This document shows, piece by piece, positions 38,358-63,528 of a stretch of 64,000 nt of DNA (position 1 is the stretch's first letter; each line of letters starts with the position of its first letter). Both the position numbers and the translations under genes were made by a program. The notes under the pieces are model-generated. The model searched no databases. It was given only the letters and a program-made list of their open reading frames with translations, and was not told the origin of the DNA. Source of the stretch: a virus; the IMG/VR virus record IMGVR_UViG_3300027733_000034, positions 62,001 through 126,000 of that record; one strand, written 5' to 3'.

Positions 38358-38358
38358 T

Positions 38359-39096: not shown

Positions 39097-39098
39097 GT

Positions 39099-39106
39099 GA
39101 TAAATA
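39099..39106 (+). promoter_or_regulatory. Late promoter motif GATAAATA
   Basis: GATAAATA matches the late element TATAAATA at 7 of 8 positions and ends 8 bases before the ATG at 39115. It occupies the 18-base gap between the divergent queC gene and the plus-strand gene. Confidence 0.55.
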
Positions 39107-39114
39107 ATATTATA

Positions 39115-41621: not shown

Positions 41622-41629
41622 TATTTATG
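41622..41629 (-). promoter_or_regulatory. Late promoter motif CATAAATA
   Basis: CATAAATA on the minus strand ends 6 bases before the ATG at 41615. If transcription begins 5-7 bases after the motif as in T4, the mRNA starts at or next to the start codon. The motif overlaps the 3' end of the upstream kinase gene. Confidence 0.6.
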
Positions 41630-44927: not shown

Positions 44928-45457
44928 TACTCTATTATAGCGTCAATTATAGCTTCCTCAACCATTTCTGGGGGTAAAATTAAAGAAGCTTCTTTTATAA
45001 GGTCTTCTACCTGTTCTAGTTTAACTTGTAAATTTTTCTTAAAATTATAAGATTCTAAGAAATTTTCTTTTGTTTTTTCTTTTATATTAGAAGATTCTTG
45101 TAAAATTAAAGTTTCTAACAAGGGTTCGCAGCTATGTGATATGATTCCCACTAATCTTTTGTAAAATCTATCTAACGGAGATTTATAACCTTCTTTTGTA
45201 GTCGGTTCTTTAATTTTGCTTATTAAATAATTTAACAACACAGTACTTTCTGCCTGGGTGCTGGTTTTATTTAAAAATTCCGGACCTCTTACATGTATTG
45301 ATCCGTATGGATTATAAATACATCCACCTCCTAAAGATGTATTTCCGCAGTACATACATCCAGTAGGGGTCATATGTACGTGAGTATGTGTAGGTGAATA
45401 CAAGCAACCCAAACCAAAATATTCTGATTCACAGTAAATGCAATGAGATTTATACAT
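44927..45457 (-). CDS. Protein with two tandem Cys/His metal-binding modules
   Basis: 176 aa. Residues 6-28 (CIYCESEYFGLGCLYSP, then HTHVH) and 34-56 (CMYCGNTSLGGGCIYNP, then IHVRG) are duplicated units of the form CxYC-x(5-8)-GC(L/I)Y(S/N)P-x(5)-H. Each could bind one zinc ion. The C-terminal 110 residues are helical and acidic. I recall similar Cys/His units in uncharacterised T4-like phage proteins but no function. It overlaps the GIY-YIG gene by 8 bases. Confidence 0.7.
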   Translation of the reverse strand: MYKSHCIYCESEYFGLGCLYSPTHTHVHMTPTGCMYCGNTSLGGGCIYNPYGSIHVRGPEFLNKTSTQAESTVLLNYLISKIKEPTTKEGYKSPLDRFYKRLVGIISHSCEPLLETLILQESSNIKEKTKENFLESYNFKKNLQVKLEQVEDLIKEASLILPPEMVEEAIIDAIIE

Positions 45458-45887
45458 AATTATAATTAACTTCTTCTTTTATTAAATTTTTAGGAGCTTT
45501 TCCTATACGTACATTGATTATCCCATTATAATAATCTTCTCTAAACATAGCCCCTCTTAATATCTGAGTTTCTATCTCATAATAGGCCATTTCCCACTTA
45601 CAGGTACAGGTTTTTAAAATAAGAAAATTAAAATTTTCTTTACCCAAACGTTCTATATCTGCATTTAATTTTTCAGAAGAACTTGTATAGGTTTTCCAGT
45701 CAGATTCTTTAATAGTTAATCTTTTGCGAAGTTTGCCTTTAAGAGGTTTAAGTCTTCGTTTAGACATACATTGTTTTTTACCAACATATATTTTATTTTC
45801 TATTTTGTTGGTTATTTCATATATAAACCCAAAAGTTTCTTCTGTTAAAATAACTCCGGGTACTACACTCCAATGACCAGTATCCAT
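45450..45887 (-). CDS. GIY-YIG nuclease-like protein
   Basis: 145 aa. GFIYEITNKIENKIYVGKK at residues 20-38 gives the GIY and YIG (here FIY and YVG) strands, WKTYTSS near 64 and a Glu-containing YYEIETQ near 102 complete the fold, and YNGIINVRIG at 120-129 supplies the conserved Asn and Arg of the group. Such domains are found in homing endonucleases and in T4 EndoII. No DNA-binding tail typical of Seg homing enzymes is visible. Its role (homing, host DNA degradation or processing) is open. Confidence 0.75.
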   Translation of the reverse strand: MDTGHWSVVPGVILTEETFGFIYEITNKIENKIYVGKKQCMSKRRLKPLKGKLRKRLTIKESDWKTYTSSSEKLNADIERLGKENFNFLILKTCTCKWEMAYYEIETQILRGAMFREDYYNGIINVRIGKAPKNLIKEEVNYNYV

Positions 45888-47962: not shown

Positions 47963-48569
47963 AAGAAAAGAAGATGATTTTGAAAATATCATCTATACAG
48001 AAGAAGAAGCAGAAATGTTAGGATTTTCTTCAACAAATCCAAAAGCAGAAAATGATGATGAAGAAGATAAAGATTTGTTTGAAATTAAAGATGAAGAAGA
48101 TGAAGAAGAAGAGGAAATTGAAGTCAAACCTACATACACCAAGAAAAAAGCAGATAAAGAAAAATTTTATGTAAATCCTCAAGAATTTGATGAAGAAATA
48201 GCAGTTTATTATAAAACCGGTAACATGTCAGATAATTTGGCTTTAATGGTTAGTAAAATTGCAAATAAATTAAGTTATGCCCCTAACTTTATCAATTATA
48301 CATTTAGAGAAGAAATGGTAGGTGATGGTATCATTAGAATGTTTAAGGCATTAACTTCTCAAAAATATGATAGAGAGAAAGGATCTAATCCGTTTTCATA
48401 TTTTACCAGAGTTGCATTCAATGCTTTTCGTAATCGAATTAAAAAAGAAAAACACTTAAGAGATACACACGAAAAATACCAAGAAAATCTTTTGCTTTTC
48501 TCGGAAAATTATAATACTATTGTAAAGAATAATCAATTACGTATTCAGAAAGATCGCGATGTCTATTAG
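47931..48569 (+). CDS. 55: Late-transcription sigma factor gp55
   Basis: 212 aa (T4 gp55: 185 aa). The sigma-2-like core is at about residues 80-180: NLALMVSKIANKLSYAPNF, YTFREEMVGDGIIRMFKAL, and GSNPFSYFTRVAFNAFRNRI, matching gp55. It directs host RNA polymerase to TATAAATA-type late promoters. The first 75 residues are extra: basic up to residue 14, then heavily acidic (EEDKDLFEIKDEEDEEEEE). The extreme C-terminus (RIQKDRDVY) does not show the hydrophobic clamp-binding tail known in T4. Its start lies inside the uvsW end and its stop inside gp47. Confidence 0.9.
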   Translation: MNTPKKKSPRKRKEDDFENIIYTEEEAEMLGFSSTNPKAENDDEEDKDLFEIKDEEDEEEEEIEVKPTYTKKKADKEKFYVNPQEFDEEIAVYYKTGNMSDNLALMVSKIANKLSYAPNFINYTFREEMVGDGIIRMFKALTSQKYDREKGSNPFSYFTRVAFNAFRNRIKKEKHLRDTHEKYQENLLLFSENYNTIVKNNQLRIQKDRDVY

Positions 48570-49623
48570 AAAAAAAATTAAATCAAGAAATATAGGTTTC
48601 TTCTCTGATATCCATATGGGTCTGGGGAGAGATAGTGTTATCTGGCAGGAAAATATTTTAAAATTTGCTGAATGGGCTAAAAGTATCTATGAAAAAAGAG
48701 ATATTACAGAAATTATAATTCCAGGTGACATCTTTCACAATAGAAGTGAAATTTCAGTTAACACATTAGCAACTGCTGCAGCTTTTTTTCAAATTTTTAA
48801 AGATTTTAATTTATATATTTCCACTGGAAATCATGATTGCCATTTTAAAAATTCATCGGATATAAATTCCATTTCAATTCTTAAGGGATGGACCAACATT
48901 ACTTTGGTTGATGAGGAACCTGTAGTATTTGACACTCCAGTAAATAAAACTTTATCCTTAATACCTTGGGGAATAAATGTAGAAGATATACCAGAAACAG
49001 ATATTTGTGTTGGACACTTTGAAATTAATTCATTTAAAATGAATGTTCAAAAAATTTGTGATCACGGGGTAAATTCTTCAGATCTCTTAGACAGATCTCC
49101 ATATATTATATCTGGCCATTTTCATCACAAAGATCATCGAAAATATGAAAGAGGTAATGTATTGTATCTTGGCAGTCCTTACCAACAAAATTTTGCCGAC
49201 TCTGGGTCTGAAAGAGGAATTTATATTTTCGATTTAAAAACCAATGAATTTGAATTTATAGTTAATAATATCTCACCACAACATTGGAAAGTTTCTTTAC
49301 AAAAAATCTTGGACAAAACTTTAACCAGTCAACATTTAAAAAATATTATTCCTAATAATATGATTAGTTTGGTAATTGATACCAAACATGCTTCTGAGAA
49401 AATTTCTTTATTAGCATCTAAATTACAAAGTCTCAAACCTAAATTTTTTAGAATTGATTATCAAACTGTGGACAATAATTTATCTTCCACAGAAGGTGAA
49501 CAAAATTATAATAGTATAGATATTCCGAAAAGTTTACAAGATTTTGTAAACACTTTAGAAATCTCAAATAAAGAAGACACTATTAGTTATCTTTCTGATC
49601 TTTACACCAAATTAACAGCATGA
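48559..49623 (+). CDS. 47: Recombination nuclease subunit gp47 (Mre11/SbcD-like)
   Basis: 354 aa (T4 gp47: 339 aa). Metallophosphoesterase motifs: SDIHMG with Asp17 and His19, PGDIFHNR at 55-62, GNHDCHF at 90-96, GHFE, and GHFHHKDH near 180-190. With gp46 it resects DNA ends for recombination-dependent replication. In T4 gene 46 lies next to gene 47; here the partner lies 10 kb downstream, after a glycosylation island. The first island gene overlaps its stop by four bases. Confidence 0.95.
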   Translation: MSIRKKIKSRNIGFFSDIHMGLGRDSVIWQENILKFAEWAKSIYEKRDITEIIIPGDIFHNRSEISVNTLATAAAFFQIFKDFNLYISTGNHDCHFKNSSDINSISILKGWTNITLVDEEPVVFDTPVNKTLSLIPWGINVEDIPETDICVGHFEINSFKMNVQKICDHGVNSSDLLDRSPYIISGHFHHKDHRKYERGNVLYLGSPYQQNFADSGSERGIYIFDLKTNEFEFIVNNISPQHWKVSLQKILDKTLTSQHLKNIIPNNMISLVIDTKHASEKISLLASKLQSLKPKFFRIDYQTVDNNLSSTEGEQNYNSIDIPKSLQDFVNTLEISNKEDTISYLSDLYTKLTA

Positions 49624-50375
49624 ACGAAAAAATTTCAATTGGAATTATTGACATATATTCCCAAGAAACTCTCAATAAATGTCTAGAAGCAATTCCCAAT
49701 TCTTTAAAAGAAAATATTGTAGTTATTTCCAATACAGATAATAAAATTCCTAATAGTATTAAAAGTATTAAATTTGGTAGAGCCGTTTCCCTGGCTTCTA
49801 TGAGAAATATTTTTCTTACATCAGAAAGGAGTAAAGGTGGTAAAAATTATTTTTTTATTATCAATTCAAATTTAATTTGTATTAAAGAAGATTTTTTTGA
49901 ACATGTAATTAAAACTGCTTCAGTCTTTGGTACCTGGGTTATGTTTGGTCCTAACAAGAAAGTTATATCGTTGGAGGAAGACAATCATAAAATTTCTTTA
50001 GATCTTGGTTATACAATGAATCCAGATTTTATTTTTCTACATTCCGGAATCATTAAAAATGTAGGATTTTTTAATGAACAAATACCTAGTAATGAATCTT
50101 TAGATGTTTTAGATTATATTATCAGATGTCATAAACTTGGAGTATGTACCCCAATGCCACACGCCCCAAGTGTTAATTATGGTTTATATGTTATGGAAGA
50201 AGAGGTTTTAAAAATTAAATTTTCAGATGAACAAAAAATAACCAATATGAGTTATGGAATGTTTTATCATTTACATAAATTTATTCCAGATCCTAAGGAA
50301 TTTCCTATTAAGAGCCAAGATGAACTTTTTAGTATTGTAGAAACTCTTCAACAAAAATATTCAAAACCTTTATAA
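49620..50375 (+). CDS. GT-A glycosyltransferase-like protein (degenerate DxD)
   Basis: 251 aa. ISIGIIDIYSQETLNKCLEA and NYFFIINSNLICIKEDFFEH occupy the positions of the nucleotide-binding strand and the DxD site of family 2 enzymes, but the DxD is NSN here. HSGIIKNVGFFNEQ and LDVLDYIIRCHKLGV match the later GT2 acceptor-side pattern. It may be inactive or use a non-standard site. First gene of the island, overlapping the gp47 stop by ATGA. Confidence 0.6.
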   Translation: MNEKISIGIIDIYSQETLNKCLEAIPNSLKENIVVISNTDNKIPNSIKSIKFGRAVSLASMRNIFLTSERSKGGKNYFFIINSNLICIKEDFFEHVIKTASVFGTWVMFGPNKKVISLEEDNHKISLDLGYTMNPDFIFLHSGIIKNVGFFNEQIPSNESLDVLDYIIRCHKLGVCTPMPHAPSVNYGLYVMEEEVLKIKFSDEQKITNMSYGMFYHLHKFIPDPKEFPIKSQDELFSIVETLQQKYSKPL

Positions 50376-51166
50376 TGAAAAAAATTGGATTAGGTATAAC
50401 AACTTATAAAAGACCAGATTATTTTTTAAAAGTAATTAATAGTATACCTTTAAAAGATTCTGGTATAGAGGTGGTAGTGGTAAATGATGGTACTCCATAT
50501 GAGGACATTCATCATGTTTTTAATCATATTCAACATCCAGTTAACAAAGGTGTGGGTATATCAAAAAATAGTGCCTTAAAATTCTTATTAGAACAAAAAT
50601 GTGATTACTTCTTTTTGATGGAAGATGATATAATCATTAAAGATCCTGCAGTATTTGAACAGTATATCAAAATGCATGTAGATACCGGTATACATCATTT
50701 TAATTATAGTCAGCATGGTTTAATGAACAAGTATCCAGGTTCCGATACCCCTTCACCAAAAACAGTTATTCAATATAAAAATAGTAAAGTAGCTCTGTAT
50801 CCTCACTGTGTAGGAGCTTTTAGTTTTTATACTAAAGAGTGTTTGGAAAAAGTAGGATTAATGGACGAAAAATTTTACAACGCCACAGAACATTTAGAGC
50901 ATACCTACAGAATCATTCAAAATAAAATGCATCCTTCATTCTGGTGGTTTGCAGACCTACCAAATGCTAATGATTTTCTGACGGACATACCGTGGACTCA
51001 AGAATCTAGTACTATATCATCTCATTATAATCATCATAACACTGTGATAAAATCTCTTCAATATTTTTATGAAAAACATAAAGTAGATTTATTACAAATT
51101 CCACAAAGTAATCTAGAAGAAATTAAATTAAATCTCAAAGAAATTTATAAATTATGGAAAATCTAA
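50375..51166 (+). CDS. Family 2 glycosyltransferase (GT-A)
   Basis: 263 aa. Clear GT2 signature: GLGITTYKRPDYFLKVINS, VVVVNDGTPYED (nucleotide-binding NDGT), FFLMEDDIIIKDP (DxD as EDD), and a later GAFSFYTKECLEKVGLMDE with the ED-type base. Starts one base before the end of the previous gene, and its end overlaps the next by 13 bases. Confidence 0.85.
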   Translation: MKKIGLGITTYKRPDYFLKVINSIPLKDSGIEVVVVNDGTPYEDIHHVFNHIQHPVNKGVGISKNSALKFLLEQKCDYFFLMEDDIIIKDPAVFEQYIKMHVDTGIHHFNYSQHGLMNKYPGSDTPSPKTVIQYKNSKVALYPHCVGAFSFYTKECLEKVGLMDEKFYNATEHLEHTYRIIQNKMHPSFWWFADLPNANDFLTDIPWTQESSTISSHYNHHNTVIKSLQYFYEKHKVDLLQIPQSNLEEIKLNLKEIYKLWKI

Positions 51167-51885
51167 CCCTAGCATCATGTTCTTATAACACTCCAGAAGT
51201 AACATTAACAATGTTGCGATCTTTTTTTAAACATCACAATGTTACAAATGTTTTAATATGTGAAAATTCTACTAATAACGAAACAGTCGATTTTTTAGTC
51301 AAAGAAAATGTTCCATTTATTAGAAATCAAAAAGGATTACATTCTCCTTCTGTAGATATTCTTTTAAATATGTGTACTACAGACTATATGTTGCTTGTGG
51401 ATACTGATATTGTCTTTCTTAAAAACCATCAAGACATATTTGATCAATTTGTTAATATGGACTTAACTCTTTTTGGTGAAGTGTGTGGAAGTCGCGGAGG
51501 TAAGTCCTTATACAACAGAGTACATCCATGGCATTGTTTGATTAATGTTAAACACATTAATCAACACAATATTAAATTTCATGACCATATTAGGCTTTCA
51601 GACAGAACCTCACCAAAGATTTATGATGTAGGGGCTAGTTTCTTTGAAGATATCAGAAAGGCTGGTTTAAAGGTGGGTAATGCTAAATTAGAAGACATTT
51701 ATTTTAAACATTATGAAGGAATGTCTTGGAGAACTAAAAAATTTGGAAATTTAGATGGAAATATTGACATTGATCCAACAGCCACTCACAACAATTCAGA
51801 AATGTTAAAATACGGTCAATTTATAGAACGTATATACCAGGCGGAAATTCCAAGTTATAAAGATATTAAAATAAATGCAAGATAA
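51154..51885 (+). CDS. Family 2 glycosyltransferase (GT-A)
   Basis: 243 aa. LASCSYNTPEVTLTMLRS, ICENSTNNET and MLLVDTDIVFLKNH (DxD as DTD) fit a GT2 fold with a short second domain. It starts 13 bases inside the end of the previous gene and overlaps the next. Acceptor unknown. Confidence 0.8.
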   Translation: MENLTLASCSYNTPEVTLTMLRSFFKHHNVTNVLICENSTNNETVDFLVKENVPFIRNQKGLHSPSVDILLNMCTTDYMLLVDTDIVFLKNHQDIFDQFVNMDLTLFGEVCGSRGGKSLYNRVHPWHCLINVKHINQHNIKFHDHIRLSDRTSPKIYDVGASFFEDIRKAGLKVGNAKLEDIYFKHYEGMSWRTKKFGNLDGNIDIDPTATHNNSEMLKYGQFIERIYQAEIPSYKDIKINAR

Positions 51886-52621
51886 TATTATTTTTGCTAT
51901 AGTTGTTCATAGTAAACAAATTATAGAGTTATTTGAATCTTCACAGAGATACAAAGATCTTAAAAATTATGTTTATATTTTAGTAGGCATACATAATGAA
52001 GATTATACTTCAGATAAAATTATCCAATGTGATCGTTTAATGGATAATATAGAAGATAATAAAAATTATTTAGCATATACTGGATGGTATGCAGTTGCCA
52101 ACAATTTAAATTTAATTGGAAAACAATTTAAATACATTTATTTTCTCGAATATGATACCAACATTACAGAACCATCAGATTTAAAAACCATGATCTTTAA
52201 TATATTTGAAGGAGATAAAAAGGTATATGGATTTCATGCGTTTGAATTACATTCTTGTTTCCTAGATAATAGCATATTTAATAGTTTAATGGTTTCTTTT
52301 CTAAAAGAAAAGGGTTATCGTTCAGTTAGAGGCAACAATAACAATTGGATGGCTACTAATAATATGGTTTTTGAAAGAAATTTTTTAGTAGATTTTTTCA
52401 ATGATGAAATGACAATTGATTTTTTAAAATACTTAAAAAATGATAAAATGTCCGGACACAATTTAGAGAGATATTTAAGTGTATATTGTTTTTTAAAAAA
52501 TGTTCAATTTGATTTTGTAAATCCTAATTGTTTTAAACACGAAGCAATGGATAGTCATAACACACAGGGAAGAAATAATGTATATGAAGGATTTAAAACT
52601 GTTAATAAAATTTCCGACTAG
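51875..52621 (+). CDS. GT-A-like glycosyltransferase
   Basis: 248 aa. An IIFAIVVHSKQIIELF strand opens the sequence, YIYFLEYDTNITEPS near residue 90 supplies a D-T-N in the position of DxD, and CFKHEAMDSHNTQGR near the end supplies conserved His and Asp. No close family named; the overall GT-A plan is inferred from strand order and location within the island. Confidence 0.6.
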   Translation: MQDNIIFAIVVHSKQIIELFESSQRYKDLKNYVYILVGIHNEDYTSDKIIQCDRLMDNIEDNKNYLAYTGWYAVANNLNLIGKQFKYIYFLEYDTNITEPSDLKTMIFNIFEGDKKVYGFHAFELHSCFLDNSIFNSLMVSFLKEKGYRSVRGNNNNWMATNNMVFERNFLVDFFNDEMTIDFLKYLKNDKMSGHNLERYLSVYCFLKNVQFDFVNPNCFKHEAMDSHNTQGRNNVYEGFKTVNKISD

Positions 52622-53249
52622 AAGTAGACCATCAAAATTTTTTAATATTTTAGACAAATATTATCTTTTATTAAAAAATCTTAATGTTGAATTTGTTATA
52701 TCTTGTGACACAGATGATATAACAATGAACAATGAAGAAGTTATTGATAAATTAAATTCTTATCCCTATTTAAGATATTATTTTGAAAATAACAAATCAA
52801 AAATAGAAGCCATAAACAATAATCTAAAAGATAAAAATTTTGATATTTTGTTATTGGCTTCAGATGATATGTTGCCAGTACAAAAGGGTTATGATGAAGT
52901 TATTCGAGCCAAAATGATGGAAACGTTCCCAGATACGGACGGAGTATTATGGTTTGATGATGATTTTCAAGGATCCAATCTAAACACTTTATGTATTCTT
53001 GGTAAAAAATACTATGACAGATTTGGTTACATTTATCATCCAGATTATAAATCATTATATAGTGACACAGAATTTACTTTAGTAAGTCAGCAATTGAATA
53101 AAGTAAAATATTTTAATCAAATTTTAATAAAACATATTCAATATTCTATAGTTAAAGAATCTCCAGATGAATTATATAAGAAAAATGATAGTTTAGAACA
53201 AGAAGATAGAATGGTTTTTGAAAAACGCAGATTAAACAATTTTAAATGA
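52578..53249 (+). CDS. GT-A glycosyltransferase-like protein
   Basis: 223 aa; ATGs at 52578 and 52584 are both possible. LLIKFPTRSRPSKFFNILDK, FVISCDTDDITMNNEEV, and DILLLASDDMLPVQKG (DxD as SDD) followed by GVLWFDDDFQGS match a family 2-like enzyme. It overlaps the previous gene by 44 bases and the next by four. Confidence 0.7.
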   Translation: MYMKDLKLLIKFPTRSRPSKFFNILDKYYLLLKNLNVEFVISCDTDDITMNNEEVIDKLNSYPYLRYYFENNKSKIEAINNNLKDKNFDILLLASDDMLPVQKGYDEVIRAKMMETFPDTDGVLWFDDDFQGSNLNTLCILGKKYYDRFGYIYHPDYKSLYSDTEFTLVSQQLNKVKYFNQILIKHIQYSIVKESPDELYKKNDSLEQEDRMVFEKRRLNNFK

Positions 53250-53971
53250 AAACAATACTAATATCTTTTGCCAATAATGAAAAATGGTATAGATCTCAAA
53301 ATGTTCTTAATCAAAGTGCTGTAAAATTTGGAATTAAACATTATATTTCTTATAATTCATCAAATTTGGATAAAGAATTTTCTGAAAAATACTCCCATTT
53401 ATTAACACCAACCACTAGAGGATATGGATACTGGATGTGGAAATCAGCCATTTTGGAACAAACTTTTAACATAGCAAATGACAACGACATTATTTTGTAC
53501 ATTGATAGTGGCAATCAAATTGTTAGCAATTTGGATTATATTATATCCGTATGTAATCAAAAAGAGGTAGTATTATTTGATAATAGAGATGGTAATCCCC
53601 ATGGAATACCACATATAAATCAAGATTGGACTAAGAGAGATTGTTTTACTCTAATGGATTGTGATGAAGAAAAATATTACAAAGCACCACAAATTGATGC
53701 TTCTTATCTTTTCTTTAAAAAAACACTTTTTACACAGTCTTTAATAAAAGAATTTAAAACATTTTCTGAAAATGAAAATATTATTTCAGATTTACCCAAT
53801 ATTACAAAACCAAATTTGTCCACTTTTAGTGATCATAGACACGACCAATCTATTATGTCCTTACTAGCTGTAAAACATAATATAGAATTATTACCGGAAC
53901 CGTCTGAGTGGGGTAATCATCTCAAGAGACCATATCCCCAGTTGTTCTGGCATCATAGAGGAGTGTTTTAA
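53246..53971 (+). CDS. GT-A-like glycosyltransferase (GYWxWK type)
   Basis: 241 aa. ILISFANNEKWYRSQ opens the protein, TRGYGYWMWKSAILEQ near residue 55 and IILYIDSGNQIVSN near 87 are the diagnostic pair of a group of glycosyltransferases that I recall from capsule and phage gene clusters. The DSG occupies the DxD position. RHDQSIMSLLAVKHNIEL near the end is also typical. Donor and acceptor unknown. Confidence 0.7.
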   Translation: MKTILISFANNEKWYRSQNVLNQSAVKFGIKHYISYNSSNLDKEFSEKYSHLLTPTTRGYGYWMWKSAILEQTFNIANDNDIILYIDSGNQIVSNLDYIISVCNQKEVVLFDNRDGNPHGIPHINQDWTKRDCFTLMDCDEEKYYKAPQIDASYLFFKKTLFTQSLIKEFKTFSENENIISDLPNITKPNLSTFSDHRHDQSIMSLLAVKHNIELLPEPSEWGNHLKRPYPQLFWHHRGVF

Positions 53972-54813
53972 TGAAATTTTTAATTATACAGGAAAACGGT
54001 CGGCATGAAATTAGTAAACATTTAAGAGAATGCAACAGCATGCAAAGAGCTCTTGTTTACAATGGAGCAGAATGTGATGTATGGGGATTGGGTCATGAAA
54101 ATTTTAACATTACCCCATCTTATGAAAAATATGATGCAATCATTAACTTAGAAAATTATGATACCGGATGGATGCCTAATTTATCACATGTTAAATCTCC
54201 TTTAAAATTTCTCTGGGCTATAGATAGTCACTGTAGAGGACAGGATTATTATGACATGGTTTTTAATGAAGGAAAATATAACTATATTTTACAAGCCACA
54301 AAATATTTTTGTAAAGATAAAAGTCTGTGGTTTCCAAATTGCTATGATGATGATTTTTTGTTTCCTACAGAGAATGAAAAGAAACATTTGATAGGTTTTT
54401 GTGGCAATGTAGTTAATAGAGGATCTTTATTGCAACACCTAGCCTCTATTATGCCTTTTAAAATAGACATAGATGTCCGCGGAGAAGAGATGATTAATGT
54501 TATAAAATCATACAAGATTCATTTTAATAAAAATATTAGTGTGGATGTAAATTATAGAAATTTTGAAACCATGGGATGTGGAACATTATTACTGACGGAT
54601 CACAATGAACAATATTCAGAACTTGGATTTAAACCCGAAACTAATGTATTTGTTTATAAAAATATAGAAGAAGCAGTTGAAATTATTAACTATTTAAAAG
54701 ATAAAGAAGATGTTATTTCAGAAGTGGCGACAAAGGGTCAAGAATTTGTTAAATCTAAACACACTTTTAGGAATAGAGCAAAACATTTAATTAAATTTAT
54801 TAATTCTCTGTAA
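53971..54813 (+). CDS. GT-B glycosyltransferase, CgeB/Glyco_trans_1_2 type
   Basis: 280 aa. The C-terminal half reads KSYKIHFNKNISVDVNYRNF, then MGCGTLLLTDHNEQYSELGF and EEAVEIINYLKDKED, the standard glycogen-phosphorylase-type donor site with its Glu/Gly turns as in CgeB-like proteins. The N-terminal half is a Rossmann-like acceptor domain with LKFLWAIDSHCRGQDYY. It starts at the stop of the previous gene. Confidence 0.8.
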   Translation: MKFLIIQENGRHEISKHLRECNSMQRALVYNGAECDVWGLGHENFNITPSYEKYDAIINLENYDTGWMPNLSHVKSPLKFLWAIDSHCRGQDYYDMVFNEGKYNYILQATKYFCKDKSLWFPNCYDDDFLFPTENEKKHLIGFCGNVVNRGSLLQHLASIMPFKIDIDVRGEEMINVIKSYKIHFNKNISVDVNYRNFETMGCGTLLLTDHNEQYSELGFKPETNVFVYKNIEEAVEIINYLKDKEDVISEVATKGQEFVKSKHTFRNRAKHLIKFINSL

Positions 54814-54814
54814 T

Positions 54815-55591
54815 ATGGAAATTAACATCAACTTTTTTGTTATTGCTTATGATTTATTGTTAGACAAAGTTGTGCAACAATTATCAGAAGATGAACTTAA
54901 TAAGTTAACCAGTTATACTGTACAAAAACGGATTCCAAAGCAAATAAGTGCAAAGATAAATAATAGAATTAATGAATGGGAATTGCCGTGGAATGATTAC
55001 TTTTATCAAACTAATCAGTGTTATGAGTATGGAGCTATGGTTCATTTATTTAAAAACAAAGAATTAATAGAAAATTTGACACATATAGGAATGCTTCACT
55101 ATGATGTTATTTTTAATAAAAACTCAATTAATAATATTCTTTTAGAATTGACAAAAAATCCAGATACTATTTTTTATCAAATGATAAGACCGAGAGAACA
55201 ACTTTCTTTATCAAAATATGAGGTGTTTAAGTTGTGTGAATTTATGGAAGAAAGAATGGATATAATGATAGACGGGTCCATTGCGTGGAATGATGGATGG
55301 ATAAGTGAAGCACTGAGTTTAACACCTAAATATATTTTTGAAAAATTTGCTCTTTTCCTGTATAAACATCATTTAGAAATTAAAGACATCTTAAAAACTA
55401 ATAGATGGAATATCATGGATCATTGTCCACATCGCATGTGTGGAATTTTGGAAAGAATGTGGGGTTTTTATCTGGTATCACGTGACTTACCACTAAGGCA
55501 ACTAGATATTATACATGACTGGGATTCTTACCAACATAAACACATGGAAACTAATGGTTCCGGAGCTTCTACTTTATGTCATTTCATATAA
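54815..55591 (+). CDS. DUF4422-like glycosyltransferase
   Basis: 258 aa. NQCYEYGAMVHLFKNKELIE near residue 72, HIGMLHYDVIFNKNS near 95 and MCGILERMWGFYLVSRDLPL near 220 follow the order seen in DUF4422-type enzymes (acceptor-side aromatic, H-Y-D, then E..wlf). The match is by eye and could be a related but distinct group. Its end overlaps the next gene by 16 bases. Confidence 0.55.
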   Translation: MEININFFVIAYDLLLDKVVQQLSEDELNKLTSYTVQKRIPKQISAKINNRINEWELPWNDYFYQTNQCYEYGAMVHLFKNKELIENLTHIGMLHYDVIFNKNSINNILLELTKNPDTIFYQMIRPREQLSLSKYEVFKLCEFMEERMDIMIDGSIAWNDGWISEALSLTPKYIFEKFALFLYKHHLEIKDILKTNRWNIMDHCPHRMCGILERMWGFYLVSRDLPLRQLDIIHDWDSYQHKHMETNGSGASTLCHFI

Positions 55592-56364
55592 ACAATATTT
55601 TAAATGCAGCTAATTATGAAGATATTTGTGATTATTCTATTGTGCCACCTTATGGAAAATATTTTAACCCAGAAATCTTAACAAGAGATGCTACTATTTT
55701 TTGTAAAACAGATTTTATAGGATATCTTTTTAATAACATTAAAGACTCTAAACAAAAATACAATTTAATTACTCATCACAGTGACTATCCCATTGATGAA
55801 TCTCGTTGGAATTTAAAACCTTCTTGTATTAAGAAATGGTTTGCTATAAATCCAACAGTAGAACATTCAGATCTCATTGCCATACCATTAGGTCTTAAAA
55901 CTCATAAAGGAGATTATCTAGAATCTAAATATATGACGTGTTGGTTTGCAGAAAACTTTAGGCCCTTAAAGGAAAATTTTAAATCAAATACAGTATACTG
56001 CAATTGGAATATAACCAATATAAATCGCAAAGAAATCTTAAATGTACTTAAAATCAATAAAATTAATTACATACAAGATGCCAATTTACCTTTTAATGAA
56101 TACATTAAAAGAATGTCACAAAGCAAATTTGTAATTTCTCCTCCCGGAAACGGAATAGACTGTCACCGAACTTGGGAAGCTTTATATGTTGGTTGTATTC
56201 CAATTGTGTTAAAAAATCATATCTATAAAGATTGGAATTTACCTATCTTACAGGTTAATGATTTTGGTGAAATAACTCAAGAGTTGCTCTCAGAATATCA
56301 GAGTCTAGAATTTGACAACAAAATGCTGATTATAGATTACTGGAAACAATTGATAAAAAGTTGA
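55576..56364 (+). CDS. Exostosin-like glycosyltransferase (GT47-type C-terminal domain)
   Basis: 262 aa. The SKFVISPPGNGIDCHRTWEA block near residue 195 and VGCIPIVLKNHIYKD after it are the donor-binding signature of exostosin/GT47-like proteins (P.G.G.D..R..E....G.IPV). The N-terminal part is an unassigned acceptor domain. It starts inside the end of the previous gene. Confidence 0.75.
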   Translation: MSFHINNILNAANYEDICDYSIVPPYGKYFNPEILTRDATIFCKTDFIGYLFNNIKDSKQKYNLITHHSDYPIDESRWNLKPSCIKKWFAINPTVEHSDLIAIPLGLKTHKGDYLESKYMTCWFAENFRPLKENFKSNTVYCNWNITNINRKEILNVLKINKINYIQDANLPFNEYIKRMSQSKFVISPPGNGIDCHRTWEALYVGCIPIVLKNHIYKDWNLPILQVNDFGEITQELLSEYQSLEFDNKMLIIDYWKQLIKS

Positions 56365-56396
56365 ATAATATTTTTATAACTATAAAATAATAAATT

Positions 56397-56999
56397 ATGT
56401 ATAATATTGACGAAGATGTATTAAATAAGTTGCTTTCTTTTTGTGATTTGAAAGGATTTGCCCCCGGAGCCTTTTTATACAATTCTAATGATAATAGTAA
56501 AAATCAACAATTAAAGTGTATAGCAGATATTTTTGATAAAATAAAACCAAAATATGTACTTGAAACCGGCACAGAGTCTGCCATGTTTTGCTATTTTGTT
56601 AAATGTTTAGTACCAGATATAAAAGTCGTAACATTTGGCATGAATGACGGGCATAATCCTACTGGAGATCATCGTTCTCAGAAGTGTACAACCTATTTGA
56701 ATCAAATTTTTAATAATTATATCGAGTATATAGAAGGTGATAGTGCTCTAACCTTAACTGCATTTAATACCAAAGAACAAATTGATTTTGCTTGGATTGA
56801 TGGATGTCATGATTATAATTTTGTAATGTCAGATCTAACAAACTGTCTTCGGTTGGGTATTAAACATATTTGTCTTGATGATTATTCGATGTTTTCAGAT
56901 GTGCGTAGTGCGGTGAATGAATTTGTTAACACAAATTCTTACAGAATTCAATGTGTAACAGATGAAGAACGTGGTATTTGTTATATAACAAATGAATAG
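56397..56999 (+). CDS. Class I SAM-dependent methyltransferase-like protein
   Basis: 200 aa. YVLETGTESAMFCYFVKCL near residue 58 is the SAM-binding motif I loop, IDFAWIDGCHDYNFVMSDL near 122 and HICLDDYSMFSDVRSAV near 158 match the Methyltransf_24 plan. The substrate is unknown; in a glycosylation cluster O-methylation of a sugar is likely. Its ATG follows a 32-base AT-rich gap, the largest break in the island. Confidence 0.7.
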   Translation: MYNIDEDVLNKLLSFCDLKGFAPGAFLYNSNDNSKNQQLKCIADIFDKIKPKYVLETGTESAMFCYFVKCLVPDIKVVTFGMNDGHNPTGDHRSQKCTTYLNQIFNNYIEYIEGDSALTLTAFNTKEQIDFAWIDGCHDYNFVMSDLTNCLRLGIKHICLDDYSMFSDVRSAVNEFVNTNSYRIQCVTDEERGICYITNE

Positions 57000-58092
57000 C
57001 CGTTTAAAAATTTGTATTGTAGGAAGTTGTAATTTACAACAATTTCCTTTAATTGATTATGGAGGCATAGAATCTTCTGTAGAACATCTATGTTCTGGTT
57101 TACATTCCCATTTTAAAGATGAAATAAATTTTAATGTTATAGTACCTAAAATAGAAAAAAATCAAGAATTGACTTCTCGGTACAATTTTAAAATTATTGA
57201 AACAAATTATATAGGATGCAGCAACTCTGGAATACATCCTATTAATTTTGCTCTGGAAGCTAGAGAAATAATTCAATCTTCTTCCTCTAAGCCAGATATA
57301 ATTTGGTCTCAAGGGGATTGGTCTGCAAAAGGTCTTTATGATTTAGGTATACCTATAATTTCAACTATTCAAGATAGTGGTCCGTGGGTTGAGGGAAAGT
57401 ACATTTTTCATAAAAATGTTTATTATAGATTTGTATCAAAATTTTTATATGATTTGGTTTTAGAAGACTCTGAAAAAAGAGAAGATGTAAGAAATATTAA
57501 ATCAAAAAGTTTCTGGGCTCATACTGGATTGGATGATTCCGAATTTATCTTTGAACCTTGCAAAGAAAATTACATACTCTGGGTAGCTGGTTTACATTGG
57601 GGAATTGAAGGAAAGGGATTAGATGTCTTTATAGAATTGGCAAAGCAATTACCAGAAGAAAATTTTATAGCCTATGGAACGGGTAATGAAGATGTTGCTA
57701 ATTACCTGAAAAAAGTAGCCACAGAATTACCAAATTTAGAATTTAGAGGCAAATTAATGAGAGGAGAAGAGCATAAAAATGCATTTAAGAATGCAAAATT
57801 TTTTGTAATGTTCACCAGGATTCCAGAAGCTTTCGGAAGAACCAATATAGAAGCTCTTTCCAAAGGTACACCAGTTTTGGGATCTTTGTATGGTTCAGTA
57901 CCAGAATTAATATCTGATAAAAATGCTGGAATTAGTTCAAATAGCTTAGAAGATTTGATTAAAGTTATTAAAGACAATAAAATAGATCATAAAAAATGTT
58001 ATGATTATGCTCTGAAAAATTTTCATGTTAATCAAGAAATAGAATTCTTGATTAAAAAATCCAAACAAATATTAAACTATGAGAGTATTTAA
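56992..58092 (+). CDS. Family 4 glycosyltransferase (GT-B)
   Basis: 366 aa. DYGGIESSVEHLCSGLHS gives the N-terminal GG-E loop, and FTRIPEAFGRTNIEALSKG near residue 275 is the E-x7-E donor motif of GT4 enzymes, followed by PVLGSLYGSVPEL. It starts inside the end of the methyltransferase gene and its end overlaps the next methyltransferase by 14 bases. Confidence 0.9.
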   Translation: MNSRLKICIVGSCNLQQFPLIDYGGIESSVEHLCSGLHSHFKDEINFNVIVPKIEKNQELTSRYNFKIIETNYIGCSNSGIHPINFALEAREIIQSSSSKPDIIWSQGDWSAKGLYDLGIPIISTIQDSGPWVEGKYIFHKNVYYRFVSKFLYDLVLEDSEKREDVRNIKSKSFWAHTGLDDSEFIFEPCKENYILWVAGLHWGIEGKGLDVFIELAKQLPEENFIAYGTGNEDVANYLKKVATELPNLEFRGKLMRGEEHKNAFKNAKFFVMFTRIPEAFGRTNIEALSKGTPVLGSLYGSVPELISDKNAGISSNSLEDLIKVIKDNKIDHKKCYDYALKNFHVNQEIEFLIKKSKQILNYESI

Positions 58093-58618
58093 AACTAGAA
58101 ATGATTTATTAGATAAACTTCCTAAAAATTTAAAAATAGCCGAATTAGGAGTTTTTAAGGGAGAATTTGCTCAAGAAATTTATAGAAGAATGATTCCTAG
58201 GGAATTAAATTTAGTGGATATCTGGTTGGGAGAATTTGGTTCTGGTGATAAAGACGGAAATAATCACACAGTTGTTAGTAACATGGAGGAGGTGTTTTTT
58301 AATCTTAGAGACACTTATAAATTTTTTAGCAATGTAAATGTAATACGAAGTGATACAGAAAATTTTTTAAATTCATGTGCGGATAATTCTTATGATATGA
58401 TTTATGTGGATGCGGATCATTCCTATGAAGCAGTCTCTAGAGATTTAGAACTATCATTCTTGAAAATTAAAAATTCTGGAATTTTATCAGGACACGATTA
58501 TATTAAGAACACTCAAATAGAGGCTGCTGTTAATAATTTCTGTCATCAATATAAACAAGATATTGTAGCAATAACCGAAGATGGTTGTCCTACTTTTGTT
58601 ATACAAGTAACTAAATAA
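58079..58618 (+). CDS. Class I SAM-dependent methyltransferase-like protein
   Basis: 179 aa. IAELGVFKGEFAQEIYRRM near residue 20 is motif I, YDMIYVDADHSYEAVSRDL near 105 the Methyltransf_24 core and GHDYIKNTQIEAAVNNF near 140 the following acidic loop. The second methyltransferase in the island. Substrate unknown. Confidence 0.75.
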   Translation: MRVFKTRNDLLDKLPKNLKIAELGVFKGEFAQEIYRRMIPRELNLVDIWLGEFGSGDKDGNNHTVVSNMEEVFFNLRDTYKFFSNVNVIRSDTENFLNSCADNSYDMIYVDADHSYEAVSRDLELSFLKIKNSGILSGHDYIKNTQIEAAVNNFCHQYKQDIVAITEDGCPTFVIQVTK

Positions 58619-59566
58619 ATGAAAAATATTTTATTCCATTCCAATCAACTTTGTATCAGAGGTACAGAAGTGGCTATGTATGACTATGCTCATTATAATG
58701 AAACATTGTTAAATAATAAATCCTATATTGTTTCCAGAAAAGACAGTGACTTAGGAGCTCTTAAAAAATTTGAAGATAGATTTGAAGTATTTTTATATAA
58801 TGACTTTGAAGAAATAGAAGATATTATTAAAGACAAAAAAATAGATTATACCTATTTAACAAAAGCTGGAGATATAGATGGCAGAGTCTCTAAAAGTTCT
58901 AAAAATTTAATACATGCAGTATTTCAGCATTATAATCCACACGGAGACAAATATGTTTACATATCAAAATGGCTATCTCAAAAAATGGCCAATGATCCTA
59001 ATAACTATATTCCTTATATAGTAACATTACCCGAACCTCAAAAAAATGATCTGCGTAAAAAATTAAACATACCCGAAGAAGCCACTATTATTGGAAGACA
59101 TGGAGGATTTGAAGAATTTAACATAGGATTGGCTATACAGGCTGTATATGACGTAGTAAATAAAAGAGAAGACATTTATTTTGTTTTTATGAATACTCGA
59201 GAATTTTGTAAACATAAACAAATTTTTTTTATTAACCCCACTTACAATCTTCAAAACAAATCCAATTATATTAACATGTGTGATGGTATGATTCATGCTA
59301 GACAATTTGGTGAATCTTTTGGATTGGCTATTGCAGAATTTTTATTTTTAAACAAACCAGTAATAAGCTGTAGACAAGGAATAGACTCTGCACATTTAGA
59401 TATGTTAGGAGATAAGGGTTTATGGTACTCTACCCATCAAGAGTGTTTTGATATTTTATTAAATTTTGACAGACAATATCATAAAGCTATAAATTACAAA
59501 GAATTAGTTTTAGAATTTACTCCTGAAAATGTAATGAAACGATTTAATAATTTGTTCTTATCGTAG
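58619..59566 (+). CDS. GT-B glycosyltransferase (family 4-like)
   Basis: 315 aa. CIRGTEVAMYDYAHYNET opens with the GxE-type loop of GT4, TIIGRHGGFEEFNIGLAIQA marks the inter-domain start of the donor domain and RQFGESFGLAIAEFLFLNKP near residue 225 is its E-x7-E motif. Last gene of the island before gp46; it starts immediately after the previous stop. Confidence 0.82.
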   Translation: MKNILFHSNQLCIRGTEVAMYDYAHYNETLLNNKSYIVSRKDSDLGALKKFEDRFEVFLYNDFEEIEDIIKDKKIDYTYLTKAGDIDGRVSKSSKNLIHAVFQHYNPHGDKYVYISKWLSQKMANDPNNYIPYIVTLPEPQKNDLRKKLNIPEEATIIGRHGGFEEFNIGLAIQAVYDVVNKREDIYFVFMNTREFCKHKQIFFINPTYNLQNKSNYINMCDGMIHARQFGESFGLAIAEFLFLNKPVISCRQGIDSAHLDMLGDKGLWYSTHQECFDILLNFDRQYHKAINYKELVLEFTPENVMKRFNNLFLS

Positions 59567-59610: not shown

Positions 59611-61428
59611 GTGAAGCGAGTAATTTTTAAATCTGTAAAAATACAAAATTTTCTCTCTGTAGGAGAAACACCTCTAACATTAAATTTTCAAAGTGGTATC
59701 TCTATTATAACTGGAGAAAATAGAGACAAAGGAGGGAGGAATGGTGTAGGTAAAAGCACTATTGTAGAATCTTTATATTGGTGTCTGTTTGGTAACACCA
59801 TGAGAGAAATTAAAAGAGAGAGAATAGTTCATAGACAGTCAGATGGCAATTGTTGTGTAGTGTTAGAATTTGATGTAGTCTCATCGAATAAAGTAAATGC
59901 ATACACTTTAATAAGGACCATCTCTCCAAATTCTGTAAAATTGTATTGCAATGAAGAGGATATTACCCTCTCCTCAATGCCTAAAACGGATGAAAAGGTT
60001 AAAGAACTCATAGGAGCCAATGAAGAAGTGTTTCGTAACGCAGTCATTATGGCTGCTAATAACACCTTGCCTTTCATGGCTCAAAAGAAAGTAGATAAGA
60101 GAAAATTTGTAGAAGGCATATTACAGTTAGGTATTTTTAGTGAAATGCTTTTACAGATCCGGCTGGATCATAATGATTTAAAAAAAGAAAATGATCTTTG
60201 TAGTACAAAATTTATAGAAAAACAGAAAAATTTAGAAATTTACAATAAACAATTTCAAAAAACAGAAAATGTTAAAATTGAAAAAATAGATAATTTAAAA
60301 ACCAAAATATCTATAAATAAAGAAAAAATAGAAACTGAATCTAAATTAGATTTAAATGCTTTGGAACAAGAAAAAAATGACTTGTTAAATTCAATTTCTA
60401 AAAAAGAACAAAAAATTAAAAAATTAGAAGAATTATCTTTAGATTGTTCTGGATCATCAGACTTTCTGAAAAAACAAGAAAATTTGTCTTCATTTAAAAT
60501 TGCTCAATTAAAAAAAGAATTAGAGGCATTAAAAGAAAAAACTCAAACATGTCCTACCTGTAAGAGATCTTATGAAGACCATGATAAAAAACACATAGAA
60601 GAATTGTGTAATGATATTGATGTAAAAATTAAAACAGAAGAAGAATCTAAAAAATTATTAACAGCAGATATTAAGCAAAAAAATAAAGATTGCAAAGATA
60701 TAGTAGAAGCAATCAAAACATTAAACACACAAATTAAAAAAGATTCAGACAGTATACATAATTTTTCTATAATTTCTAAAGAAATCAAACACTTAACAGA
60801 CATAAACAATTCTCTTCAAAAAGAAATTGAAGAAATTCAAAATTCTAAAAATGAATTTGAAAGTTTAATATCAAATATTAAAGAAGAAATTGCTGAAGAA
60901 GAAACTAAATTGGAAGATTTACAAAAAAGAATTTCAGTTCTAGAGGTGGCAAAGTATGTAGTATCAGAAGAAGGGGTGAAGACCTACATTATCAAGAAAA
61001 TGTTAGTCATTCTCAATTCTAGATTAAATCATTATTTGCAAATTTTAGAAGCTCCGTGTAAATGTGAATTCAATGAAGTGTTTGAAGAAACCATTCATGA
61101 TGAGTATGGAAAAGAAAGCTCTTATTTTAACTATAGTGCCGGAGAACAAAAACGAATAGATCTAGCTATTCTTTTTATGTTTCAAGATTTGTTAAGACAG
61201 CAAACAGGTACATCCTTTTCCTTGAGTATGTATGATGAATTATTTGATTCTGCTATAGACGAGAAAGGTGTAGATAAAATTTTAGACATTTTAAAAGATA
61301 GAGTTGAAAAATTTCAAGAAAACATTTATATTATCTCACACAACACTCATACCTCTAAATCAGGTGTGGATCAGATTATTCTTTTAGAAAAACACAACGG
61401 AGAAACAAAATTAATTGAACAAATTTAA
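59611..61428 (+). CDS. 46: Recombination nuclease subunit gp46 (Rad50/SbcC-like)
   Basis: 605 aa (T4 gp46: 560 aa). Walker A GRNGVGKST near residue 43, a long coiled coil, the zinc hook CPTC at residues 314-317, the ABC signature SAGEQKR near 510 and Walker B SMYDELFDSAID near 540. It partners with gp47. The start is a GTG at 59611, preceded by AGGA ten bases upstream, one of the few Shine-Dalgarno-like sequences in the window. Confidence 0.95.
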   Translation: MKRVIFKSVKIQNFLSVGETPLTLNFQSGISIITGENRDKGGRNGVGKSTIVESLYWCLFGNTMREIKRERIVHRQSDGNCCVVLEFDVVSSNKVNAYTLIRTISPNSVKLYCNEEDITLSSMPKTDEKVKELIGANEEVFRNAVIMAANNTLPFMAQKKVDKRKFVEGILQLGIFSEMLLQIRLDHNDLKKENDLCSTKFIEKQKNLEIYNKQFQKTENVKIEKIDNLKTKISINKEKIETESKLDLNALEQEKNDLLNSISKKEQKIKKLEELSLDCSGSSDFLKKQENLSSFKIAQLKKELEALKEKTQTCPTCKRSYEDHDKKHIEELCNDIDVKIKTEEESKKLLTADIKQKNKDCKDIVEAIKTLNTQIKKDSDSIHNFSIISKEIKHLTDINNSLQKEIEEIQNSKNEFESLISNIKEEIAEEETKLEDLQKRISVLEVAKYVVSEEGVKTYIIKKMLVILNSRLNHYLQILEAPCKCEFNEVFEETIHDEYGKESSYFNYSAGEQKRIDLAILFMFQDLLRQQTGTSFSLSMYDELFDSAIDEKGVDKILDILKDRVEKFQENIYIISHNTHTSKSGVDQIILLEKHNGETKLIEQI

Positions 61429-61432
61429 TATT

Positions 61433-62185
61433 ATGACAGAAAACAATTATCTATTGATTAGTGATGATGGTCCAGGATTTCACACCATTGAAGGAGAAGG
61501 CCGATTAATCGGAAAACCCAGTATCTTCTTACGTTTATTTGGATGCAATTTGACATGTAAAGGATGGGCTACTCCTGATTCTCCCTGGGGTTGTGATTCC
61601 TTTATCTCATGGTCCAAGAAAAACAAATGGACATTTGAAGATATCTTTAAATTTTATGAAGAAAATGGTCTTGTTGAGAAGCTTTTAAGAGGAGATATCT
61701 GGAAATTGACTGGCGGAGAACCTTTCTTACGCCAAGAACCACTATTAGATTTTGTAGAAGAATTTGTCAGTCGTTATAAACAAATTCCAACTATTGATTT
61801 TGAAACCAATGGCACCATTAAACCTAATGATACTTGGTATGATACCTACGAAGCATCCTTTACAGTATCACCGAAGTTATCTAGTAATGGAGATCCAAAA
61901 GAAAGAAGGTATCAACCAGAAGTTTTAGATTGGCATGCTAAACACAATTCTTGTTTTAAGTTTGTAGTTAATTCTAAAGAAGACATGGATGAATTGTTTG
62001 AAAATTACATTAATTCTAAAGAATTTTATATTAATCCAAGCAATGTATGGCTTATGGTATGTGCAGGTTCCCGAAAAGAACATGTAGAGAGAGCAGCATA
62101 TGTAGCAGAGTTAGCCAAGGAACATGGTTTTAATTTTTCACCAAGACTTCAGTTAGTAATTTGGGATAAAGCTCTTCGTGTATAA
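61433..62185 (+). CDS. queE: 7-carboxy-7-deazaguanine synthase QueE (radical SAM)
   Basis: 250 aa from the ATG at 61433. Converts 6-carboxytetrahydropterin to 7-carboxy-7-deazaguanine. The N-terminal substrate loop HTIEGEGRLIGKPSIFLRL is typical of QueE, as are TGGEP at 93-97, ETNGT at 124-128 and SPKLS at 146-150. The cluster cysteines are 38, 42 and 54 (CX3CX11C), where standard radical SAM enzymes have CX3CX2C; similar insertions exist in some QueE proteins. Product feeds QueC at 38.4 kb. It starts just after the gp46 stop. Confidence 0.88.
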   Translation: MTENNYLLISDDGPGFHTIEGEGRLIGKPSIFLRLFGCNLTCKGWATPDSPWGCDSFISWSKKNKWTFEDIFKFYEENGLVEKLLRGDIWKLTGGEPFLRQEPLLDFVEEFVSRYKQIPTIDFETNGTIKPNDTWYDTYEASFTVSPKLSSNGDPKERRYQPEVLDWHAKHNSCFKFVVNSKEDMDELFENYINSKEFYINPSNVWLMVCAGSRKEHVERAAYVAELAKEHGFNFSPRLQLVIWDKALRV

Positions 62186-62217: not shown

Positions 62218-63528
62218 ATGGCCTTAAAAATTAAAAATCAAACAGATGTAATATCTAAAGATTCTATCATTTATCAGTACAATGTAATCTTAGGAGGCAT
62301 ACCCAATTTGCCAGTAGGTGTTCCTAAACAATTTTTACCAGTTTATCGTTATATACTATTGACCCCTATTCATGTTCCAGCAGCTCCGGCAGTAGAAATG
62401 CCGGAAGCATCTACTCCAAGAGCATTAAATTATTATGCAGATTACGGTGGTTGTGGATTCTGGAGAATGGTTTGGCCAGAAGTTGCTTTAAATGCTTATC
62501 AAAAAGCTAGTATTTCTGGTTTAACTAGCATGGTTTTAGATATAAGGTTTTATCAAGGTATTAAATCTATTAGATTCCAACGCCAAGCAACACCAATTCA
62601 AGAACAATTCATTGTCGAATTGAAAAAATCTCAAAAAGATATGGGCTACCGCATGCTGTATGAGGTAGATGATATTGTTTTTAGGAATGATATTCCTGAT
62701 TACAATAGATGCAAAGAAGCCTTTGCCTCCAAAGAAACCGAAGACACTATCCTGCGTATATTAAGTCACATGGATGAAATGACCGTTACTTGTCAATTCA
62801 TGAAAGATTATTATATGGAGAAGACTGGACTCAAAAATATTACAGTCATTCCCAATTATGCCCCGAAGTCTTGGTTAGGTAGGCTTTACAATCCAGAAAG
62901 AATTGCTAGATTATATGATCAACATAAAAAGAGACCTCGTATTTTGTATTCTGGGTCTGGAACTCATGTAGATATGATCAACAAAACTGGTTTCAAGGAT
63001 GATTTTGAACATGTGGTTCAGGAAATTATTAAAGCTCGTAAAAAGTTTAAATTTGTTTGGAAGGGTACCTATCCGTTAGCAGTCAAACCCTTTATCGATA
63101 ATGGAGAAATGGAATTTTTAGGATGGACTCCTCTTTTTGATTTGCCTCAAGCTCAATATGATGCTGGTTGTAATGCTACTTTTGCTCCTTTACAGGATAA
63201 TATCTTTAATAAATCTAAGAGTAATATTAAAATGATTGAATCTGGTGCTCTTGGTATGCCAGGAGTCTTCCAAGACCTGTGTACCTACGGGGATGCAGAG
63301 GTAAAATTCAAATCTGGCACAGATCTTATCAATCAATTAGAATATATTACGTCTGATTTTGATAGATATATGAAATTGTCTTCTAATCTTTATCAGTTTA
63401 CAGATAAATTATGGCTAGAAGATCATTTAGACTGCTATGAAGCTATATATTTTACACCCTGGGGCAGCAAAGAGCGCCAACTCAAGTCTCCAGAGCTCAT
63501 TAGATTGAATCCAGATCAAAAATTGTAG
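62218..63528 (+). CDS. GT-B glycosyltransferase
   Basis: 436 aa. The C-terminal half has PRILYSGSGTHVDM near residue 240, FLGWTPLFDLPQAQY near 300 and KSNIKMIESGALGMPGVF near 335, the donor domain of GT-B enzymes with its Glu-Gly loop. The N-terminal half includes MGYRMLYEVDDIVFRNDIP, which resembles O-antigen-type glycosyltransferases I recall from T4-like phages near gene 43. It lies between QueE and gp43, outside the main island. No Shine-Dalgarno. Confidence 0.75.
   Translation: MALKIKNQTDVISKDSIIYQYNVILGGIPNLPVGVPKQFLPVYRYILLTPIHVPAAPAVEMPEASTPRALNYYADYGGCGFWRMVWPEVALNAYQKASISGLTSMVLDIRFYQGIKSIRFQRQATPIQEQFIVELKKSQKDMGYRMLYEVDDIVFRNDIPDYNRCKEAFASKETEDTILRILSHMDEMTVTCQFMKDYYMEKTGLKNITVIPNYAPKSWLGRLYNPERIARLYDQHKKRPRILYSGSGTHVDMINKTGFKDDFEHVVQEIIKARKKFKFVWKGTYPLAVKPFIDNGEMEFLGWTPLFDLPQAQYDAGCNATFAPLQDNIFNKSKSNIKMIESGALGMPGVFQDLCTYGDAEVKFKSGTDLINQLEYITSDFDRYMKLSSNLYQFTDKLWLEDHLDCYEAIYFTPWGSKERQLKSPELIRLNPDQKL

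Follow-up and report, generated by a model that had tools for sequence, protein, structure and literature searches.

A candidate docking site for exchangeable glycan-assembly cassettes between genes 47 and 46 of uncultivated T4-like phages

Bacterial O-antigen and capsule loci occupy a fixed chromosomal site at which conserved ends enclose an exchangeable centre of glycosyltransferase (GT) genes. For phages, Freeman reportedly linked GTs encoded by mycobacteriophages to glycosylated capsid and tail tube in 2023 (as cited in PMC12619734); an exchangeable multi-gene cassette is not described there. Islands of GT genes in aquatic T4-like phages are already known. The host-recognition cluster of pelagimyophages and cyanomyophages is a hypervariable island bounded by VrlC and gp14 and surrounded by tail-fiber genes (PMC7029224), the cultivated cyanophage S-SCSM1 carries glycan genes (PMC9602691), and four core GTs have been reported from another large aquatic phage lineage (PMC12619734). 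Here, we analyze a stretch of 64,000 nucleotides (the window; bases 62001–126000 of the 131,532-base IMG/VR virus record IMGVR_UViG_3300027733_000034), in which an island of GT and methyltransferase genes (49620–59566, plus strand) separates gp47 (SbcD-like; 48559–49623, +) from gp46 (SbcC-like; 59611–61428, +).

Like the host-recognition cluster, this island is a variable interval containing several GT genes in T4-superfamily phages of aquatic bacteria. Unlike it, the island consists almost only of glycan genes, begins with a constant gene, and contains no fibers; because of its location between gp47 and gp46, it was not classified as a host-recognition cluster. The fixed site, the conserved ends, and the exchangeable GT center are shared with O-antigen and capsule loci, but hydropathy, the only measure applied, gave no sign of a Wzx/Wzy/ABC transporter, an initiating phosphotransferase, or a ligase among the 353 proteins of this and the related islands. 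In the literature searched, we found no match for a gp47–gp46 docking site, for a gp47-locked gene lacking a DXD motif, or for cassette exchange between two sites.

The initial annotation, made from the sequence letters and a list of open reading frames (ORFs), had described gp47 and gp46 as separated by 13 co-directional, mostly overlapping ORFs. PHROG profiles (PHROG_100, SbcD, 1e-63; PHROG_77, SbcC, 4e-98) and the ORF junctions confirmed this arrangement: the two genes lie 9,987 bp apart, gp47 overlaps the first island gene by 4 bp, and 11 of the 12 internal junctions overlap or are within 1 bp, the sole sizeable spacer (32 bp) being situated just before gene 10. The two flanking genes, previously stated to be adjacent in T4, are not strictly so, as 46.1 and 46.2 (443 bp) lie between them. 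In seven T4-superfamily phages out of the 2,800 or more cultivated records with gp47, a sample examined singly and not a census, the interval ranged from 0 to ∼0.6 kb. It contains no gene in Melnitz, one oxygenase gene in Mosig, and two small ORFs in S-SKS1, and is likewise closed or occupied by one or two small genes in phiM12, ACG-2014j, and ACG-2014f.

Scanning viral contigs for gp46 yielded 43 loci (best segments 45–100% identical). Both flanking genes were visible in 26 related records, and 25 of these carried an island of 3,948–16,670 bp with 5–22 genes; only L073 had an empty site (44 bp). Once near-identical records were set aside, ∼21 islands remained; the position statistics are from 20 non-redundant islands. 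Under a strict threshold, the 353 island proteins were grouped into 121 families. For positions 1–6, the mean fraction of the other islands containing a homologue was 0.96, 0.86, 0.69, 0.35, 0.24, and 0.13, respectively. The island almost always has a constant start of one or two genes, followed by content differing almost completely between phages. No gene order common to all relatives emerged from this comparison, and the earlier proposal of a replacement hotspot is supported; the islands are not uniformly variable, however, because the gp47-proximal gene is constant. The ORFs were intact and oriented in one direction in every interval, except for one ORF in a partial interval. Neither the guanine-plus-cytosine (GC) content of the island (0.283) nor its ends set it apart: the former was not usefully different from the surroundings (the island of one relative, G009, reaches 0.37, compared with 0.25–0.30 in the others), and scanning the latter for repeats returned AT-rich chance matches only and no attachment site. 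A tRNA scan of the window found none.

Gene 1 (family 1; 49620–50375, +) was present in 20/20 non-redundant islands and was the first gene in 19 of them. When viral contigs were searched for the family, all 80 loci obtained had gp47 as their immediate upstream neighbor, at a distance of up to 56 bp in 78 cases and of 932 bp in two. None of 50,697 phage records yielded a member of the family, a collection of bacterial and archaeal genomes gave 57 pattern matches but 0 relatives and thus no hint as to the host, and its profile did not match any PDB sequence. Its AlphaFold2 model (predicted local distance difference test [pLDDT] 91.6) has a GT-A fold, as Foldseek aligned it with probability 1.00 to GT27, GT2, and GT13 structures (query template modeling score about 0.45–0.6), the best matches being ppGalNAc-transferases, TarP, and others. 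Gene 2 (family 0; 50375–51166, +), near-constant, is a GT2 (PF00535, 1.5e-5, over the cut-off; PHROG_2456, 2e-27) and, among cultivated phages, is closest to the GT2 kind of mycobacteriophages. The two families align along their whole length (hhalign, probability 99.2, E 6e-20), which identifies gene 1 as a paralogue of gene 2. The motif E83 D84 D85 of gene 2 is invariant in 25 sequences; in gene 1, this DXD-type metal-binding motif is replaced by [N/H]-S-N (S83 in 58/58, N84 in 56/58 sequences), while D165, assigned from the alignment as near the catalytic-base position of GT2, is retained in 57/58. Gene 1 would therefore encode either a non-catalytic partner protein or a metal-independent transferase.

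Phages with relatives of the cassette were retrieved by searching with genes 6 and 8. They contained homologues of most of genes 2–9 and 11–13 in largely the same order, a recurrence that supports the initial idea of a defined oligosaccharide being assembled. In G029, G030, G033, and G040, the cassette is situated between homologues of g119 and g112 (site II) instead of between gp47 and gp46 (site I), which overlap in G030 and adjoin in G033. It is co-directional with the g112 homologue and ends 20–33 bp upstream of it in G029, G030, and G033, and 7 bp upstream in G040; downstream of g112, these phages encode a GroES-like cochaperonin, a DNA helicase, gp15, portal, and other head genes. In the window, g112 (36426–37016, −) and the thymidylate-kinase–like g119 (41625–42263, −; PHROG_2107, 2e-20) delimit a site II with a single GT (Glyco_tranf_2_5; 37033–37722, −; PF13712, 3.9e-8), which is kept in the relatives with an island at site I. 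Site II of six such same-site relatives (G002, G003, G005, G009, G018, and G019) consists of the single GT, an amidotransferase, and QueC, with an additional epimerase-like gene in one of them.

Direct identities were compared between cassette and core genes (Mann–Whitney test). Against G029, the cassette of the window phage had a median identity of 64%, its core 41% (p 0.001); the corresponding medians were 54/42 for G033, 56/42 for G040, and 45/40 for G030 (p 0.005–0.013), whereas the difference was not significant for G031 (48/46). The reverse was true for the same-site relatives G002, G003, and G005, whose cores were 63–66% identical to that of the window phage but which had only two to three island genes in common with it, at ∼40% identity; over the same-site relatives, the number of shared genes was two to five. 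Cassettes therefore move as units between lineages and between two genomic sites. Because of this dissociation, most of the cassette of the window phage appears to have been imported, probably in this direction, from a lineage that carries it elsewhere. The cultivated Synechococcus phage S-SKS1 encodes a glycan cluster (about 33–48 kb) with GDP-mannose dehydratase, GDP-fucose synthase (GDP, guanosine diphosphate), a fucosyltransferase, and an epimerase. Along one run of this cluster, matches were found for 16 different island proteins of the clade of the window; unlike the island, this cluster is located outside gp47–gp46 and lacks a family-1 protein.

Three observations concern the surroundings of the two sites. 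A GroES-like cochaperonin near head genes of the window (35648–36031, −; PHROG_3188, 5e-5) is perhaps the counterpart of gp31. Beside site II of G009 (L222 11497–13287), two adjacent 261-aa ORFs among fiber-like ORFs resemble copies of each other. In G033 (L199 6019–9338), gp46 is split, its first ∼50 residues being ∼1 kb away from the rest; this may reflect an intron or a mobile insertion, and it had no Rfam match.

Nine of the 11 island genes other than methyltransferases, all 11 of which had initially been called GT-like, were supported as GTs by profile or fold. Pfam or PHROG supported genes 2, 5 (52578–53249, +; PHROG_14945, 1e-16; homologues in eight related islands), 7 (CgeB-like; 53971–54813, +; PF13524, 1.3e-21), 9 (exostosin/GT47-like; 55576–56364, +; RXYLT1_C, 8.5e-7; GT47, 8e-8), and 11 (GT4; 56992–58092, +; PF00534, 7e-13). 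Support was weaker, under the cut-off, for gene 3 (GT2-like; 51154–51885, +; PF00535, E 0.003), whose homologue in the G029 cassette is 73% identical, and for gene 13 (GT4-like; 58619–59566, +; PF00534, 0.0014), with a 40% identical homologue in S-SKS1. The fold supported gene 1 (in addition to PHROG, 4e-6) and gene 6 (53246–53971, +), which had no Pfam match; its AlphaFold2 model (pLDDT 89.7) is GT-A–like (GT8/GT6-like), with xyloside xylosyltransferase, LARGE1, and BoGT6a as Foldseek matches. Genes 4 (51875–52621, +) and 8 (54815–55591, +) are cassette members without an assigned family. Gene 4 matched nothing in Pfam, PHROG, or NCBIfam, and a direct search with it returned the near twin only; further relatives, occupying the same place in other cassettes, came via the cassette. 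Gene 8, without a family match, has a 77% identical homologue in the G033 cassette. The GT2-like, CgeB-like, exostosin-like, and GT4 assignments were upheld, whereas DUF4422 was searched for and found nowhere in the record. Genes 10 (56397–56999, +; PF13578, 1e-7) and 12 (58079–58618, +; PF13578, 1.9e-12) are the two expected methyltransferases (Methyltransf_24). Gene 10 is accessory: the near twin L051 (95–97% DNA identity) carries the same island but lacks gene 10 as well as the last part of gene 9, a difference set off by an abrupt junction.

In the island of the window, no nucleotide-sugar enzyme was recognized, and the sugar donors would therefore be supplied by the host or by other parts of the genome. 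Sister islands encode GDP-mannose 4,6-dehydratase, epimerases, and fucosyltransferases of GT10 (with FucT_N) and GT11, further GT25, GT47, GT61, a GT family with sugar-binding DXD, FkbM, and C-methyltransferases. By hydropathy, none of the 353 proteins was clearly membrane-spanning (one value was borderline), and hence nothing pointed to a flippase, polymerase, or ligase. Together with the enzyme content, this suggests that synthesis in the cytoplasm yields methylated and sometimes fucosylated oligosaccharides. Most likely, the island is an operon whose soluble products assemble an oligosaccharide, the start of the process being constant and its outer steps exchangeable. Genes 1 and 2, as a pair of pseudo-enzyme and enzyme or of metal-independent transferase and GT2, would jointly initiate cytoplasmic assembly of the chain on a fixed acceptor, subsequent GTs would each add one sugar from nucleotide sugars of host or phage, and the methyltransferases would cap or decorate the chain. 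The acceptor would most likely be a virion protein that the same cell produces, and different cassettes would thus give rise to differently coated particles.

That the gp47–gp46 interval is a docking site for such cassettes, with a virion protein as the likeliest acceptor, is a reading to which we give an even chance. For the target itself, the odds of it being a virion protein are likewise about balanced; the leaning toward the virion stems from the constancy of the first gene, the missing export machinery, and the head-gene neighbors in the sister lineage. Chloroviruses combine a constant core glycan with variable, often methylated outer sugars, and mimiviruses have clade-specific glycogene clusters (PMC9614988, PMC7826918). 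Virus-encoded, clade-specific clusters and a constant core with a variable periphery are thus common to these viruses and the phages considered here; the former, however, infect eukaryotes and carry proven glycans, located on capsid or fibrils, whereas the glycan is a predicted one here. A bolder and doubtful proposal extends this parallel: site I might be a bacteriophage "glycan serotype" locus, at which the gp47-locked, DXD-less pseudo-transferase and the adjacent GT2 act together as a universal starter, with an acceptor encoded by the phage. Imported cassettes, shared with other lineages that have them next to the head genes, would then build lineage-specific virion coats.

Several points weigh against a virion glycan assembled in this way. 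Glycan, acceptor, and activity are predictions from the genes. Judged from T4, site I would lie among early/middle-type genes and not late ones. The T4-type late promoter TATAAATA occurred nine times in the window (16.6 expected) and not within the island; no clear motif was found upstream of structural genes, these counts are silent on timing, and sigma-70 and terminator scans were near chance. Genes 4 and 8 lack an assignment, and one island (L059) does not contain the otherwise near-constant gene 2. The cassettes at site II have no gene 1, which is therefore not required wherever a cassette works. Peripheral LPS-core (LPS, lipopolysaccharide) GTs are also soluble, so that the missing membrane helices are compatible with the host envelope as target.

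The main rival, although we consider it rather unlikely, is that the cassette acts on the envelope of the infected host and remodels its LPS core or O chain, which might block adsorption of competing phages or loss of progeny to debris. Besides the solubility of LPS-core GTs, the GT25, GT10, and GT11 families and the GDP-fucose–type synthesis, typical of LPS outer chains, are in its favor, and the authors describing GT genes of pelagimyophages (PMC7029224) and of S-SCSM1 (PMC9602691) interpreted them in this sense. By hydropathy, the 353 island proteins show no sign of a lipid carrier, flippase, polymerase, or ligase, though; a constant first gene would suit a phage-encoded acceptor better than the variable LPS cores of hosts, and the cassette of the sister lineage abuts a run of head genes. 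Virion protein and host envelope, both among the targets initially suggested, were thus kept.

The third, DNA, is disfavored. Glycosylation as by T4 agt/bgt, or by the diverse GTs acting on 5-hydroxymethylcytosine, would fit the position of T4 a-gt near gene 47, and Pyle is said to have described, in 2024, viral GTs by which several sugars are attached to DNA (as cited in PMC12619734). Yet the thymidylate-synthase superfamily (PF00303), which would include a deoxycytidine or deoxyuridine monophosphate (dCMP/dUMP) hydroxymethylase, was absent from the 131.5 kb of the possibly incomplete record, while a control search was positive in 9/14 genomes. As phmmer also found no match to T4 gp42, bgt, or agt, the record provides neither hydroxymethylpyrimidine synthesis of the gp42 type nor the corresponding GTs, and it carries the genes of a different base-modification route; 5–22 genes per island are, moreover, many for a base. 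We therefore regard a DNA target as very improbable. Marginally less probable is that GT genes passively accumulate where recombination is permitted, without forming a defined pathway or yielding a single product: turnover is great (121 families) and one gene differs between near twins, but the ORFs are, with one exception, intact and co-directional, their order is kept across lineages and both sites, and the 5′ end is constant.

The base-modification genes encode QueC, a class II glutamine amidotransferase, and QueE (37719–39168, −, and 61415–62185, +) and probably specify a 7-deazaguanine (preQ0/archaeosine-type) modification; a search with PF01702 for an inserter of the TGT/DpdA type found none. 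Between QueE and DNA polymerase, a 436-aa protein (62218–63528, +) matches a PHROG GT family (7e-19) and is conserved in both same-site and site-II relatives.

One phage group reserves a site between two recombination genes at which entire pathways for sugar chains dock, and its lineages exchange these pathways faster than their core genes change. Were the glycans located on virions, the surface chemistry of phages would be modular and passed on by horizontal exchange. The constant first gene is a marker for finding such phages, the proteins of genes 1 and 2 are a defined pair with which the start of glycosylation could be tested, and S-SKS1, which is cultivated and carries related genes, could serve as model phage.

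Two further genes of the window are worth recording. Among large tail-region genes, an 824-aa protein with RCC1-like repeats (6881–9355, −) is a possible adhesin. A small protein encoded beside UvsW (45450–45887, −), conserved in relatives, weakly matches the Seg GIY-YIG homing endonucleases of T4.

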